Assembly: GCF_038022665.1 (NCBI RefSeq)
Contig: NZ_CP150629.1
Coordinates: 2,028,480 to 2,092,479 of the forward strand
Length of the DNA: 64,000 nt
Source: Methanolobus sp. WCC4
GTDB taxonomy: Archaea > Halobacteriota > Methanosarcinia > Methanosarcinales > Methanosarcinaceae
Direction: 5' to 3'
Shown here piece after piece: positions 11,971 through 32,966 of this stretch. The position numbers and the translations under genes are program-made. How positions within the stretch are numbered: position 1 is the first letter of the stretch; every line of letters begins with the position of its first letter. A model generated the notes under the pieces. It searched no databases. It had not been told where the DNA came from and worked only from the letters and a program-made list of their open reading frames with translations.

Positions 11971-13206
11971 ATGAAAAAAATAGACGAAACAATGAGTATA
12001 TACCAGATCATAAATGAATATCCATTTCTACTGAAAATATTCAAGCAGCACGGCATGGGTAAGTTCGAGAACAAGGATGTTCTTGACCAGCTTGGTCCTT
12101 TGCTCAAACTGAGAACCGCACTTTCAATGGTAGCAGTGAACAAGGATTCCTTTATCGAGCTTCTGAACCAGGCCATTGCGGACAATGAAGCAAATGGAGA
12201 CTTCACCCTTGCAGATTCCCCTGAAAGACAGAAAGAGCTGACCCTGCTTGCCCTATTACCATGCGGGATGAAGATGCCTTTCAACAGGGCTCTCAATGAA
12301 TTCTCCACCGAGTACAGCAAAGAGACAGGAAATGTACTGCATTCCCTTGTAGAAGGTAATGTGAACCATGAGATATCCTATTATGCGTATATGGATTCCG
12401 TCACCTCGGTTGAAGAACTGCCTGATATTATCATCAGTTCCGACATCAACAGTTTCTATCACAAACCATTCCAGGAGAATTTCCTCAATTATGAATATTT
12501 CACGGACCTTGGTGCCTCACCAATGAACAGTGACTTTGAGTCAATAGGTTTTGCAGACCCGCGAGGTCAGTTCACAATGCTCTCCGGAAATCTCCTTGTC
12601 CTTGTCACCATAGATGAGCTCATGGACGGACAGGTCACACCTACTTCATGGGAAGATGTACTGAAAGAGGATTTCCGTAACAAAGTGATCATGCGTGGAC
12701 AGAACGGCTTCTTCTGTAATGGCGTACTGATACCCTTCTACCAGTTATACGGAATGGATGGTATCAAGAAGCTTGCTTCATCCGTGTATGCCGGGTCCCA
12801 TCCTTCCGAGATGGTGAAGATGATCGACAGCAGGAAGGATGATGTCCCTCCAATGTACATAATGCCTCATTTCTTCGCCATGAAGATCAAGGATAAGTCC
12901 AGAGTAACTATTACCGTACCAAAAGAAGGTGCAATTGTAAGTCCGGTGCAGATGCTGGTAAAAAAGGAGGCTACCGAGAGAGTGAAGGGAATAACTGATT
13001 TCCTTTGTGGAAAGAAGTTCGGCGAGATATCAGCCAGAGCCTTCTTCCCCACAACCCATCCTGATGTACAGAACAAACTGGAGGACGTGGACTCGCTCTA
13101 CTGGCTGGGCTGGGACTTCCTGCTGGACACTGATATCGGTGCTCTCAAGAAGGAGATAGCAGAGGTGTTCAACAAGCAGTTCATGATAACCGGAGGTGTC
13201 GTTTGA
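11971..13206 (+). CDS. DUF1858 domain fused to ABC-type substrate-binding-protein-like fold, no signal peptide
   Basis: About 411 residues. The first 70 resemble the DUF1858 helical domain (TMSIYQIINEYPFLLKIFKQ, then HGMG), found at the N-terminus of ScdA-type and other redox proteins. The remainder resembles a Fe3+-type periplasmic binding protein (SSDINSFYHKPF, WEDVLKEDFRNKVIMRG), but there is no signal peptide or lipobox, so it should be cytoplasmic. The start at 11971 is chosen for its Shine-Dalgarno (CAGAGGAAATGAT). The stop overlaps the TTG start of the GTPase gene by four bases, and the ABC ATPase follows directly. A role in carrying a metal or cofactor inside the cell is inference. 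Confidence 0.75.
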   Translation: MKKIDETMSIYQIINEYPFLLKIFKQHGMGKFENKDVLDQLGPLLKLRTALSMVAVNKDSFIELLNQAIADNEANGDFTLADSPERQKELTLLALLPCGMKMPFNRALNEFSTEYSKETGNVLHSLVEGNVNHEISYYAYMDSVTSVEELPDIIISSDINSFYHKPFQENFLNYEYFTDLGASPMNSDFESIGFADPRGQFTMLSGNLLVLVTIDELMDGQVTPTSWEDVLKEDFRNKVIMRGQNGFFCNGVLIPFYQLYGMDGIKKLASSVYAGSHPSEMVKMIDSRKDDVPPMYIMPHFFAMKIKDKSRVTITVPKEGAIVSPVQMLVKKEATERVKGITDFLCGKKFGEISARAFFPTTHPDVQNKLEDVDSLYWLGWDFLLDTDIGALKKEIAEVFNKQFMITGGVV

Positions 13207-13898
13207 GGCTTGTTACCGTAGCAGGCCCACCGTCATCGGGAAAGACCAGCATAATCATCAGGACCATTGAGGAACTCAGGAGCAAGGGTCATACCGTAGG
13301 TGTTGTGAAGTTCGACTGCCTGTCCTCGCAGGATGAGGAAATGTATTCAGCTCACAATATACCTGTCAGGACCGGACTATCCGGAGGACTATGTCCCGAC
13401 CATTTCTTTGTAAGTAATATAGAAGAGGCCCTGAAATGGGCAGAGGAACGGAATTTCGACTACCTTATCACAGAGAGTGCCGGTCTTTGCAACCGCTGTT
13501 CCCCGCACATCAAGGATGTACTCGCTATATGTGTTATCGATAACCTCAGCGGTGTCAACACACCCAGGAAGATCGGTCCGATGCTTAAACTTGCAGACAT
13601 TGTAGTAATCACGAAAGGGGATATCGTCTCTCAGGCGGAACGCGAGGTTTTCGCATACCGTGTCAGGCAGGTCAACCCCGGCGGAATGATCGTGAATATC
13701 AACGGAGTTACAGGACAGGGGAGTTTCTATCTTGCAAAGTTCGTGGAGAAAAGCTCTGCTGTGGACACACTTCAGGGAGCAACACTTAGATTCACCATGC
13801 CCGGAGCCCTGTGTTCGTATTGCCTTGGTGAGAGGAAGATAGGTGATGACAGACAGATAGGCGTTTCAAAGCTTGTGAACTTCAGAGGAGATGATTGA
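13203..13898 (+). CDS. HypB/UreG/CobW-like GTPase with cysteine pairs
   Basis: A 231-residue SIMIBI-class P-loop GTPase: Walker A GPPSSGKTS near residue 8, a switch-like segment VKFDCLSSQDEE, and a VITKGD guanine-specificity motif. It has a C-x2-C (ESAGLCNRCSPH) and a C-terminal C-x2-C (GALCSYCLGERKIG), both suited to binding nickel, cobalt or zinc as in HypB and UreG. The TTG start at 13203 overlaps the previous stop (TTGA) and has a strong GGAGGTG upstream, so translation is coupled. Family class is clear; the metal and the client enzyme are unknown. Confidence 0.8.
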   Translation: MRLVTVAGPPSSGKTSIIIRTIEELRSKGHTVGVVKFDCLSSQDEEMYSAHNIPVRTGLSGGLCPDHFFVSNIEEALKWAEERNFDYLITESAGLCNRCSPHIKDVLAICVIDNLSGVNTPRKIGPMLKLADIVVITKGDIVSQAEREVFAYRVRQVNPGGMIVNINGVTGQGSFYLAKFVEKSSAVDTLQGATLRFTMPGALCSYCLGERKIGDDRQIGVSKLVNFRGDD

Positions 13899-14912
13899 TT
13901 GCGCAAAGAAATGCTTCATATGACCATAGGTGAGCTTATGGAAATGATGCCATGGATCGAGGATTATCTCTCATCGTTCTCCATGGACACCGAACAGTTC
14001 GGCAATATCAGACTGGAAGAACTTGAAGTAACTCCGGGAGAGGAATTCTTCGAGGAGAAAGGAAGCGACTATCATGCTTTCATAGACGGTCTCTTCATGT
14101 TCATAGAGCAGGTCAAAGCCCTTCAGCAGGAAAGCGTCTTCACGGTGGAATGCCTGACCATACTTCCCGGAAAGGACAAGAATGGCGATAAAGAGGTGTT
14201 CTCGGTCGAGCTGAAAAAGGGAGAGGTGACTGCGATAGTTGGTCCCACCGGATCTGGCAAATCCCGTCTCCTTGCCGATATAGAATCCCTTGCACAGAAT
14301 GATACCCCCACCGGACGCAGCATAATGGTCGATGGTCGCTTCCCGGATGATGAGGAACGATTCTCCACCGAGGGACGCTTTATAGCACAGCTCTCACAGA
14401 ACATGAACTTCGTCATGGATCTCAGTGTAGAGGATTTCCTGACACTTCACGCCGAGAGTCGTATGGTGGATGAGATATCCCACATAGTCCGAAAGATATA
14501 CGATACAGCGAATGTCCTTGCAGGTGAGCCTTTCAGCAGGGAGACCCCTGTAACACAACTTTCAGGAGGACAGTCAAGAGCCCTGATGATCGCAGACACA
14601 GCACTCCTGAGCCCCGCATCAGTTGTCCTGATAGACGAAATAGAGAACGCTGGTGTCGACAAGGTAAGGTCTCTGGAACTCCTGGTAAGCAATAACAAGA
14701 TAGTCCTCATCAGTACCCACGACCCTCTCCTGGCCCTCTCCGCAGACCAGCGAATTGTCATTAAGAACGGCGGTATATCAAAGCTCATGAAGACCACAGA
14801 TGATGAGAAAAAGCATCTGGAAAGTCTTGAGAAGATAGACAGGAAGATCACACAGCTCAGGGATCAGTTAAGAACCGGGGAAGAGATCGATCTGAGCGAA
14901 CTGCTGGTATAA
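13899..14912 (+). CDS. Orphan ABC transporter-type ATPase
   Basis: A 337-residue protein. The N-terminal about 100 residues are an extra acidic helical domain. The ABC domain follows: Walker A GPTGSGKS, Q-loop region (FIAQLSQNMNF), signature LSGGQSRAL, Walker B VVLIDE and H-loop STHD. It is a single-domain ATPase and no permease gene is nearby, so it is unlikely to be a normal importer. The TTG start at 13899 follows the GTPase stop directly, with GAGGAGATGA just upstream. It completes the three-gene operon and may act as a mechanochemical component of metal or cofactor insertion, which is inference. Confidence 0.8.
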   Translation: MRKEMLHMTIGELMEMMPWIEDYLSSFSMDTEQFGNIRLEELEVTPGEEFFEEKGSDYHAFIDGLFMFIEQVKALQQESVFTVECLTILPGKDKNGDKEVFSVELKKGEVTAIVGPTGSGKSRLLADIESLAQNDTPTGRSIMVDGRFPDDEERFSTEGRFIAQLSQNMNFVMDLSVEDFLTLHAESRMVDEISHIVRKIYDTANVLAGEPFSRETPVTQLSGGQSRALMIADTALLSPASVVLIDEIENAGVDKVRSLELLVSNNKIVLISTHDPLLALSADQRIVIKNGGISKLMKTTDDEKKHLESLEKIDRKITQLRDQLRTGEEIDLSELLV

Positions 14913-15599: not shown

Positions 15600-15878
15600 T
15601 CGAAAATTATGGATCAGACAGATATTGAACCAGCTTATCTCATTGTCCATAATAAAGAGATCTTCTTTTAATGGAGAGTTTTTGGAGATAGGAACAACTT
15701 TAACAGACCTAAGTACCCGGCAAAGCTGGCACACTCCGAAAAGATGAAGTAAAAGTATTCATGGTCCTGAGTAAAGATCAATATCCCTTTTTAGATCAAC
15801 CAGATAGATATATATGTAACATCCTTGCATACTAGGTTTGTTCAAATATTTTTGAAACATCTTTCTGTAGGGAAGTAC

Positions 15879-16952
15879 ATGGACACTAAAAACAAAGATA
15901 TCTGCGATTCATCGGACACAAAAGCAGATACATCCCAGTTCATCACAATGATAGGTCTTGGTGATAGCCCTGCACCTGAGATACATGAGACCACAGGCAC
16001 TCTCACGTTCAGTGACCATCTGGACCACTTCCTTGCAAGATGGGGGTTCAGACGCTCAGAGCACATAGTAGAACCCGGTATCTACAAACTCGGTGATCCG
16101 GACCCTGATTCTCCGGTCTTCGTCTCAGCCAACTACACCCTCAGTTTCGATGCGCTCCGCAGTTCACTTGCAGGTATCGACTGCTATATCCTTGTCATAG
16201 ACACGAAAGGCATCAACGTCTGGTGTGCTGCCGGAAAAGGAACATTCGGGACCGACGAGATAGTCTGGCGTATCAAATGGTCAGGACTTGATAAGGTAGT
16301 GAACCATAGTAATCTGATATTGCCACAGCTCGGTGCTCCCGGTGTATCTGCACATGAGGTAAAACGTCGTTCGGGATTCAAGGTGGAATACGGGCCTGTC
16401 CGTGCAAAGGACCTGCCTGAATATCTCAGGAACCATACTGCAACACCTGAAATGAGAAAGGTCAGGTTCACCTTTTGGGACAGACTGGTGCTGACACCCA
16501 TAGAATTCGTCCATGTGGTAAAACCAACACTGGTGGCTGCCATTTTACTTTACCTGCTGTCCGGTCCCTTTGCAGCGTTCGCTGCGGTGGCCACAGCATT
16601 CTCAGGAACAGTACTGTTCCCTGTCCTCCTTCCATTCCTGCCTGCCCATGACCTCAGTGTCAAAGGGATCATCCTTGGATGGCTCACAGCGCTACCATTC
16701 GGAATAGTCCTTGCAGCCAACACACAACTGCCACTTTGGGAAGAGATCCTTGCACTGATATCCCTGTTCCTTATAATTCCGGCAGTTATAGGATTCCTTG
16801 CACTGAACTTCACAGGTTGCACTACCTATACGTCCAGAACCGGGGTGAAGAAAGAGATATTCAGGTATGTACCATATATGGCACTGAAAGCAGGTACTGG
16901 AACACTCTGCCTTGTAATTATTGGAGCCAGCCGTTTAATGGGGATGATCTGA
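15879..16952 (+). CDS. hgcA: Mercury-methylation corrinoid protein HgcA
   Basis: HgcA is a membrane-anchored corrinoid protein that transfers a methyl group to Hg(II), giving methylmercury. The 357-residue product has the corrinoid-binding domain with the diagnostic cap-helix motif N113-V-W-C116-A-A-G-K (in GINVWCAAGKG), where Cys116 is the expected lower-axial cobalt ligand. Residues about 205-355 form hydrophobic transmembrane segments (VKPTLVAAILLYLLSG and others), the known HgcA layout. The ATG at 15879 is chosen because AGGGAAG precedes it. Its stop overlaps the hgcB start by one base (TGATG), so the pair is translationally coupled. hgcAB occurs in some Methanolobus species. Confidence 0.95.
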   Translation: MDTKNKDICDSSDTKADTSQFITMIGLGDSPAPEIHETTGTLTFSDHLDHFLARWGFRRSEHIVEPGIYKLGDPDPDSPVFVSANYTLSFDALRSSLAGIDCYILVIDTKGINVWCAAGKGTFGTDEIVWRIKWSGLDKVVNHSNLILPQLGAPGVSAHEVKRRSGFKVEYGPVRAKDLPEYLRNHTATPEMRKVRFTFWDRLVLTPIEFVHVVKPTLVAAILLYLLSGPFAAFAAVATAFSGTVLFPVLLPFLPAHDLSVKGIILGWLTALPFGIVLAANTQLPLWEEILALISLFLIIPAVIGFLALNFTGCTTYTSRTGVKKEIFRYVPYMALKAGTGTLCLVIIGASRLMGMI

Positions 16953-17257
16953 TGTTCAATTCATACAAAGAGAATACACTTCAATACTATCCTGAGAAAT
17001 GCATCAACTGTCTCATGTGTACAAAAGTCTGCCCTCACGGGGTTTTCACTGAAGGGGAAAAAGGAAAGGGACATGTGGAACTCACAAGGCCAGAAAAATG
17101 CATGGAATGCGGAGCATGTGCCGGTAACTGTCCAGTAGAGGCTATCGAGGTCGAGAGTGGTGTAGGTTGTGCATGGGCTATGATCGGTGCAGCACTCAAA
17201 GGCAAGGATATGGATAGTGATGCAGTCTGCTGCGGAGAGGATGGATGTTGTCAGTGA
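16952..17257 (+). CDS. hgcB: Mercury-methylation ferredoxin HgcB
   Basis: HgcB is a 2[4Fe-4S] ferredoxin thought to reduce the HgcA corrinoid and to help deliver mercury. The 101-residue protein has two C-x2-C-x2-C-x3-C clusters (Cys17/20/23/27 and Cys50/53/56/60), the conserved extra Cys73 in GVGCAWA, and a C-terminal tail with two vicinal pairs (Cys93-94 and Cys99-100) that are expected to bind Hg(II). The start overlaps the hgcA stop and GGGGATGA lies just upstream. A longer frame extends 5' inside hgcA but is not the real start. All residues considered essential in characterised HgcB are present. Confidence 0.95.
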   Translation: MFNSYKENTLQYYPEKCINCLMCTKVCPHGVFTEGEKGKGHVELTRPEKCMECGACAGNCPVEAIEVESGVGCAWAMIGAALKGKDMDSDAVCCGEDGCCQ

Positions 17258-32494: not shown

Positions 32495-32633
32495 GAATCG
32501 TTTTCAGGTATTCTGACCGGATAATTAGTTTTATATACCCATTTCAACATATTTTGAAGTATCTGGTGCTGACATTAAACTCCAGTTGCCAGATCAACAG
32601 TGTTAACTGCGAAAAATATTGGAGATAAATATC

Positions 32634-32966
32634 ATGAGAATGCTTGAAGAATTCTTCCCTGAATTTACTGAAAAACTTGACGAGATAGACAAACTCTATG
32701 CTGAGATGAGACCTATCGATGAGAAAACATACCAGTACCTTTGTTTTGCGCTGTCCATCAAAGCAAGGTCAAAACCATGTGTCCTTAAACACTTCAAAGG
32801 TGCACTGGAAGCAGGAGCCACTGTAAAGGACCTGTCCTACATATTTGCACTTACCATGAGAGAGGCAGCCGGTGCCGATGACTGCTGGACACATGACGTG
32901 ATCGGTGACTGGAAGGAGATCCTTGAGGGGAACGTTAGTTGTACCTGCTGTGGCGATGAGGAATAA
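32634..32966 (+). CDS. Carboxymuconolactone decarboxylase/AhpD-like protein
   Basis: A 110-residue all-helical AhpD-like protein. The family usually carries C-x2-C-x3-H in a redox helix; here only the second Cys-like position and the His remain (KPCVLKHFKGALEAGA), so a thiol-disulfide role through that motif is doubtful. A C-terminal Cys cluster (SCTCCGDEE) is an unusual addition that could supply new thiols or bind a metal. GGAGAT precedes the ATG at 32634. Confidence 0.8.
   Translation: MRMLEEFFPEFTEKLDEIDKLYAEMRPIDEKTYQYLCFALSIKARSKPCVLKHFKGALEAGATVKDLSYIFALTMREAAGADDCWTHDVIGDWKEILEGNVSCTCCGDEE

Follow-up and report, generated by a model that had tools for sequence, protein, structure and literature searches.

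The hgcAB promoter of a Methanolobus archaeon shares an ArsR-type dyad with arsenic-export genes, suggesting that arsenic may control methylmercury formation

The gene pair hgcAB makes the neurotoxin methylmercury, and finding such a pair in Methanolobus sp. WCC4 raises the questions of whether it is genuine, which of the surrounding genes belong with it, and what decides when it is expressed. We analyzed a 64-kb stretch of the genome around the pair (referred to here as the window) together with the rest of the genome, a single contig of 2.85 Mb, and the corresponding loci of related archaea.

The hgcAB pair and its promoter

The following features of the window are central to the analysis:
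15807..15816, + strand: gatatatatg, a TATA-box-like sequence conserved among 12 aligned hgcA upstream regions of the window type
15841..15856, + strand: dyad TTCAAA-TATT-TTTGAA, a predicted ArsR operator, conserved in window-type loci, with the same site found before ars genes
15879..16952, + strand: hgcA, 357 aa, with a corrinoid-binding domain and five predicted transmembrane helices (NF040863, NVWCAAGK motif, 9a0b fold)
16952..17257, + strand: hgcB, 101 aa, a dicluster ferredoxin that has Cys73 and, at its C terminus, two vicinal Cys pairs (NF040864)

The initial annotation had described hgcA and hgcB as overlapping by one base and carrying all diagnostic residues, and both statements were borne out. 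The coordinates are exact: hgcA runs from an ATG at 15879 to a TGA at 16950-16952, and the ATG of hgcB lies at 16952. An upstream hgcA start (TTG at 15825) was considered and dropped, since ATG 15879 agrees better with the start seen in the alignment and with the conserved block in the promoter. HgcA scores 445.7 bits against NF040863 (curated equivalog cut-off, 275) and HgcB 111.5 bits against NF040864 (curated equivalog cut-off, 99); chance is excluded as the source of the match. All eight residues of the cap-helix motif NVWCAAGK, which contains Cys116, are invariant in an alignment of 37 sequences, and the cysteines of HgcB (residues 17, 20, 23, 27, 50, 53, 56, 60, 73, 93, 94, 99, and 100) account for both 4Fe-4S motifs, for Cys73, and for two vicinal pairs (93-94 and 99-100). 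The AlphaFold model of HgcA (mean pLDDT, 82) consists of an alpha/beta domain at approximately residues 35 to 185 and five long C-terminal helices; a fold search of the PDB ranks the integrative HgcAB model 9a0b first (E value of 6.5e-19) and corrinoid iron-sulfur proteins next. The pair resembles HgcAB of Pseudodesulfovibrio mercurii ND132, which likewise combines a corrinoid membrane protein with a dicluster ferredoxin and has Cys73 and vicinal C-terminal cysteines in HgcB as well as the Cys of the cap helix (PMC11588087), the difference being that HgcB of the window has two vicinal pairs. Most archaeal HgcA proteins have a Cys-rich N-terminal tail, and 46 of the 93 sequences inspected contain a CC pair there; HgcA of the window keeps a single Cys in this tail (15879-15960).

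The most informative feature of the locus, overlooked in the first reading, is the dyad at 15841-15856, which lies just 3' of the TATA box and 22 bp before the hgcA ATG. The strict form of this dyad (TTCAAA-N4-TTTGAA) occurs once in the 64-kb window, compared to 0.01 occurrences expected from shuffled sequences. When the sequences preceding the 12 window-type hgcA genes are aligned, good agreement is confined to the final 80 to 100 bp. Within this block, 10 of the 12 promoters have the dyad in almost the same position and with no more than one mismatch (the two loci lacking it are L116 and L125). It is absent from all 10 related Methanosarcinaceae loci that belong to another hgcA lineage. Among the dyad-bearing loci, 2 of 120 positions are changed in the arms, 10 of 40 in the spacer, and 50 of 120 in the right flank; the difference between arms and spacer (P of ~2e-5) is to be read as indicative, as these loci were chosen for having the dyad and, being related, are not independent observations.

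Occurrence of the dyad across the genome and the genus

Sequence-pattern matching was used to search for further sites, with the strict dyad, an extended form (TTTCAA-N6-TTGAAA), and a reversed control. Five strict sites were found in the genome, at hgcA, at arsP (divergent from a methyltransferase gene), at arsFG, at an FmdE-TauE operon beside arsFG, and inside a photolyase-like open reading frame (ORF) (L207); the last was rejected as a regulatory site. All five perfect matches to the extended form precede arsenic-resistance or linked genes, namely acr3, arsP (two sites), arsFG, and the FmdE gene beside arsFG. When one mismatch was allowed, 36 extended sites were found, compared to 12 for the reversed control; the hgcA site, which is one outer base off the extended consensus, is among the 36. 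The acr3 gene product scores 379 bits against TIGR00832 (cut-off, 283), and arsFG matches NF040494 and NF040495 above cut-off.

The same placement before arsenic-resistance genes extends through the genus. Across 27 Methanolobus genomes, 79 strict sites were found (reversed control, 11), and a dyad stands before arsP in 20 of these genomes. We read 64 strict sites other than those at hgcA: 26 lie in promoters of arsP, acr3, arsF, arsE-type, or arsR genes; 8 lie before an FmdE gene, which was counted separately because it is no established arsenic gene; and 30 are not near a recognized ars gene (19 elsewhere, 11 inside ORFs). Two arsR genes of one subfamily (L297 and L300) have two or three dyads upstream.

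Several genes met during this reading are worth recording in their own right. The FmdE-like/TauE pair, which adjoins arsFG in the WCC4 genome, stands under an ArsR-type dyad in several Methanolobus genomes; one example (L203, 2-1407) consists of an FmdE-like protein with a dksA/traR zinc finger and a TauE permease. A single ORF in a Methanolobus genome (L290, 1304-2383) fuses an ArsR-type helix-turn-helix to an arsenite methyltransferase (ArsM) domain. The window itself holds a second site:
32542..32559, + strand: second ArsR-type dyad, TTTCAACATATTTTGAAG, one mismatch to TTTCAA-N6-TTGAAA, just 3' of the TATA-like sequence tttatatacc
32634..32966, + strand: small Cys-containing ORF of 110 aa behind the second dyad, with weak AhpD/CMD-like (GSU3128) similarity

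This ORF scores 19.3 bits against NF041047, below cut-off, and is, from its upstream dyad, a possible further member of an ArsR-type regulon.

Because of its placement before ars genes in the genome and the genus, and because its architecture is the same as that of the published ArsR consensus ATCAA-N6-TTGAT (PMC9137774), we read the dyad at 15841-15856 as a predicted ArsR operator. It shares the TCAA-N6-TTGA core of the bacterial operators (PMC9137774) but has T/A instead of A/T as outer bases and is part of an archaeal TATA promoter.

Window-type loci have neither an adjacent arsR nor an adjacent AbrB gene, and a regulator would have to be encoded elsewhere. The best candidate for the repressor appears to be an ArsR/SmtB protein of 119 aa that carries a CVC motif (G000:C1:299061-299420), homologues of which are present in all 27 Methanolobus genomes. 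Its gene has no dyad of its own, so its repressor role is one that we infer; the genome also contains other ArsR-like genes. The CVC motif is typical of As(III)-sensing ArsR proteins.

ArsR/SmtB proteins as a family sense various metals, and the member that binds the dyad might respond chiefly to something other than arsenic (for example, Hg, Sb, Cd/Zn, or a redox or thiol signal), in which case hgcAB would belong to a broader metal-stress regulon. Some of the putative regulon members, such as the FmdE-TauE operon and the AhpD-like ORF, are indeed not specific to arsenic. Most recognized members, however, are arsenic genes (those for ACR3, ArsP, ArsF, ArsG, and ArsE-type proteins), and a CVC motif is present in the candidate regulators; we consider a non-arsenic sensor unlikely, while taking it seriously. 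It is somewhat harder to maintain that this is an ordinary hgcAB pair whose promoter is constitutive or under some other control, with the dyad a chance AT-rich palindrome or part of some other element. The two window-type loci without the dyad and the strict site within the photolyase-like ORF are consistent with such a reading, but the rarity of the motif in the window, the conservation of its arms relative to its spacer, and the position of all five perfect extended sites make it improbable.

Neighboring genes and relatives of the locus

The initial annotation had also pointed to a nearby GTPase/ABC cassette as possibly related to hgcAB:
11974-14912, upstream of hgcA: cassette encoding a DUF1858 binding protein (substrate-binding protein [SBP]), a CobW-like GTPase with CxxC motifs, and an ABC ATPase

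The SBP consists of a substrate-binding domain fused to DUF1858, and the cassette as a whole is shared with Methanosarcina. hgcAB might work together with this cassette, for example in metal or corrinoid delivery. The cassette adjoins hgcA upstream at the window locus in WCC4 and seven further genomes, and it lies next to hgcA, though at a different locus, in G064. In raw counts, it co-occurs with hgcAB in Methanolobus, being present in 11 of 15 genomes with hgcAB and 1 of 11 without (Fisher P of 0.0017; both, 11; hgcAB only, 4; cassette only, 1; neither, 10). However, the complete cassette is also found in seven Methanosarcina genomes without hgcAB and in the hgcAB-less G059, four Methanolobus genomes have hgcAB without it, and in G042 and G053 the cassette is present but not adjacent to hgcAB. 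It is near none of the non-Methanolobus hgcAB loci examined, and in a phylogenetic independent-pairs test the association, which rests on few independent events, disappears (P of 0.5 to 1). From whole-genome presence and absence and this test, the suggested relationship comes out largely negative: the cassette is an old neighbor of hgcAB and probably not a partner, and we regard a joint function as very unlikely.

Intact hgcAB, judged by matches above the HgcA cut-off and by reading the genes, is present in 15 of 26 near-complete Methanolobus genomes (G048, 70% complete, was left out of this count), and presence and absence change at least eight times when mapped on a tree of one neighboring gene. 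The HgcA phylogeny, proposed as a check in the initial annotation, places HgcA of the window among 12 sequences that form a clade with full support (100/100). A second Methanolobus HgcA lineage lies apart from this clade and groups with Methanosarcina (94/82 for the wider group); in Methanolobus psychrotolerans and its relatives, HgcA belongs to another lineage, whose loci have an upstream AbrB gene but lack the dyad. Among named organisms, Methanolobus bombayensis and Methanolobus vulcani have the closest loci (78 to 79% HgcA identity), with the same neighboring genes; Methanolobus tindarius and other members of the genus have HgcA proteins of 73 to 80% identity, and several of these genomes share the hgcAB neighborhood. 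Methanolobus was already known to carry hgcAB, and cultures of M. tindarius methylate mercury (PMC5893877), so the pair itself adds one more member to an established family.

It seems to us highly improbable that the pair is something other than a functional methylator, whether a paralogue of the CO-dehydrogenase corrinoid subunit, an HgcAB-like fusion protein, or a pair in decay. The sole Pfam match of HgcA is indeed PF03599 (CdhD), and relatives include a broken copy (in G051) and probable fused-type HgcAB proteins (in G024 and G038), but both proteins exceed their equivalog cut-offs, the authentic CdhD/E genes are located elsewhere in the genome, and the fusion model NF043039 (HgcAB-like, single ORF) gives 218.3 and 52.3 bits, below its cut-off of 285, on what are here two ORFs. 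The broken copy (L132, G051:C47, 3561-4940) sits at the same locus and comprises remnants of hgcA and hgcB; the GTPase/ABC cassette is missing there. Two other Methanosarcinaceae genomes have ORFs of ~385 aa (L133, 9360-10511; L175, 6869-8026) that are HgcA-like over 140 residues only (~42% identity) and are probably fused HgcAB-like proteins. Eight of nine tested methanogens with hgcAB made methylmercury, M. tindarius among them, and a strain with fused hgcAB made none (PMC5893877). Given that record and that the genes of the window are separate rather than fused, mercury methylation by Methanolobus sp. WCC4 is a fair prediction.

For archaeal methylators, control by an AbrB/PrlF-type protein rather than by ArsR has been proposed (PMC10349881), and in ~50 of the 94 loci studied an AbrB-type gene immediately precedes hgcA. 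Such control is barely credible here and largely refuted by absence: no such gene lies upstream of hgcA or was found anywhere in the genome, and the same search finds it in the three Methanolobus genomes that have it, always beside hgcAB. Where it occurs (L114, L117, L124, and ~47 other hgcA loci), it is a dedicated gene of ~95 aa with a Cys-rich N terminus.

Proposed control of hgcAB and its meaning

Links between hgcAB and ars genes are already known (PMC10349881, PMC7438021). In P. mercurii ND132, an adjacent ArsR-like regulator is reported to control hgcAB, as cited in PMC10349881; the window differs in having the operator only, with no adjacent ArsR gene. Among archaea, five Methanomicrobiales loci (L048, L051, L054, L079, and L092) resemble the window in having TTCAA-N6-TTGAA-type dyads at the hgcA promoter and an ArsR protein with the CVC motif, but their arsR gene is adjacent to and divergent from hgcAB, and they have two dyads 51 to 52 bp apart. 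In L048 and L092 the gene order is arsR-hgcA-hgcB-acr3, so that hgcAB is embedded in an arsenic-resistance operon. These five loci are placed apart from the window on the HgcA tree. The data argue for ArsR control that would act in trans in the Methanolobus clade of the window and in cis in some Methanomicrobiales.

Taken together, the window contains a genuine two-gene hgcAB operon, and we think it likely that this operon belongs to a predicted trans-acting ArsR (arsenic) regulon via the dyad at 15841-15856. In the proposed mechanism, hgcAB would be transcribed from its own TATA promoter, and a dimeric repressor of the ArsR family, made from a gene elsewhere in the genome, would bind the dyad (approximately +1 to +20, in the gap between TATA box and start codon) and block transcription initiation at hgcA. 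The repressor would be released by a thiophilic metalloid, with As(III) or an organoarsenical the most probable ligand, and hgcAB would be induced together with acr3, arsP, and arsFG. The products would form a membrane HgcAB complex, in which the HgcA corrinoid, ligated by cap-helix Cys116, would take a methyl group from SAM, the methyl donor to HgcA cob(I)alamin in the P. mercurii complex (PMC11588087). The methyl group would pass to Hg(II). By analogy, and judging from its clusters and essential cysteines, HgcB would reduce the HgcA corrinoid through its 4Fe-4S clusters and deliver Hg(II) through its cysteines.

Shared control with arsenic genes could also bear on the native role of HgcAB. 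If that role in these archaea were metalloid defense, with methylmercury as a side product, hgcAB would be coexpressed with arsenite and organoarsenical exporters because HgcAB acts on arsenic or a similar thiophilic element, by methylation or in some other way; we regard this as a speculative and rather improbable extension.

Because the hgcAB promoter shares an ArsR-type switch with the organism's own arsenic-export genes, our analysis suggests that arsenic may control methylmercury formation in this Methanolobus archaeon. If true, this would place an archaeal hgcAB in an arsenic regulon through an orphan operator, shared with the cell's own arsenic exporters and with no neighboring regulator gene; since no regulator gene adjoins hgcAB, such an operator is invisible to gene-neighborhood surveys. 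Arsenic exposure should then raise hgcAB expression, and perhaps methylmercury, in Methanolobus.
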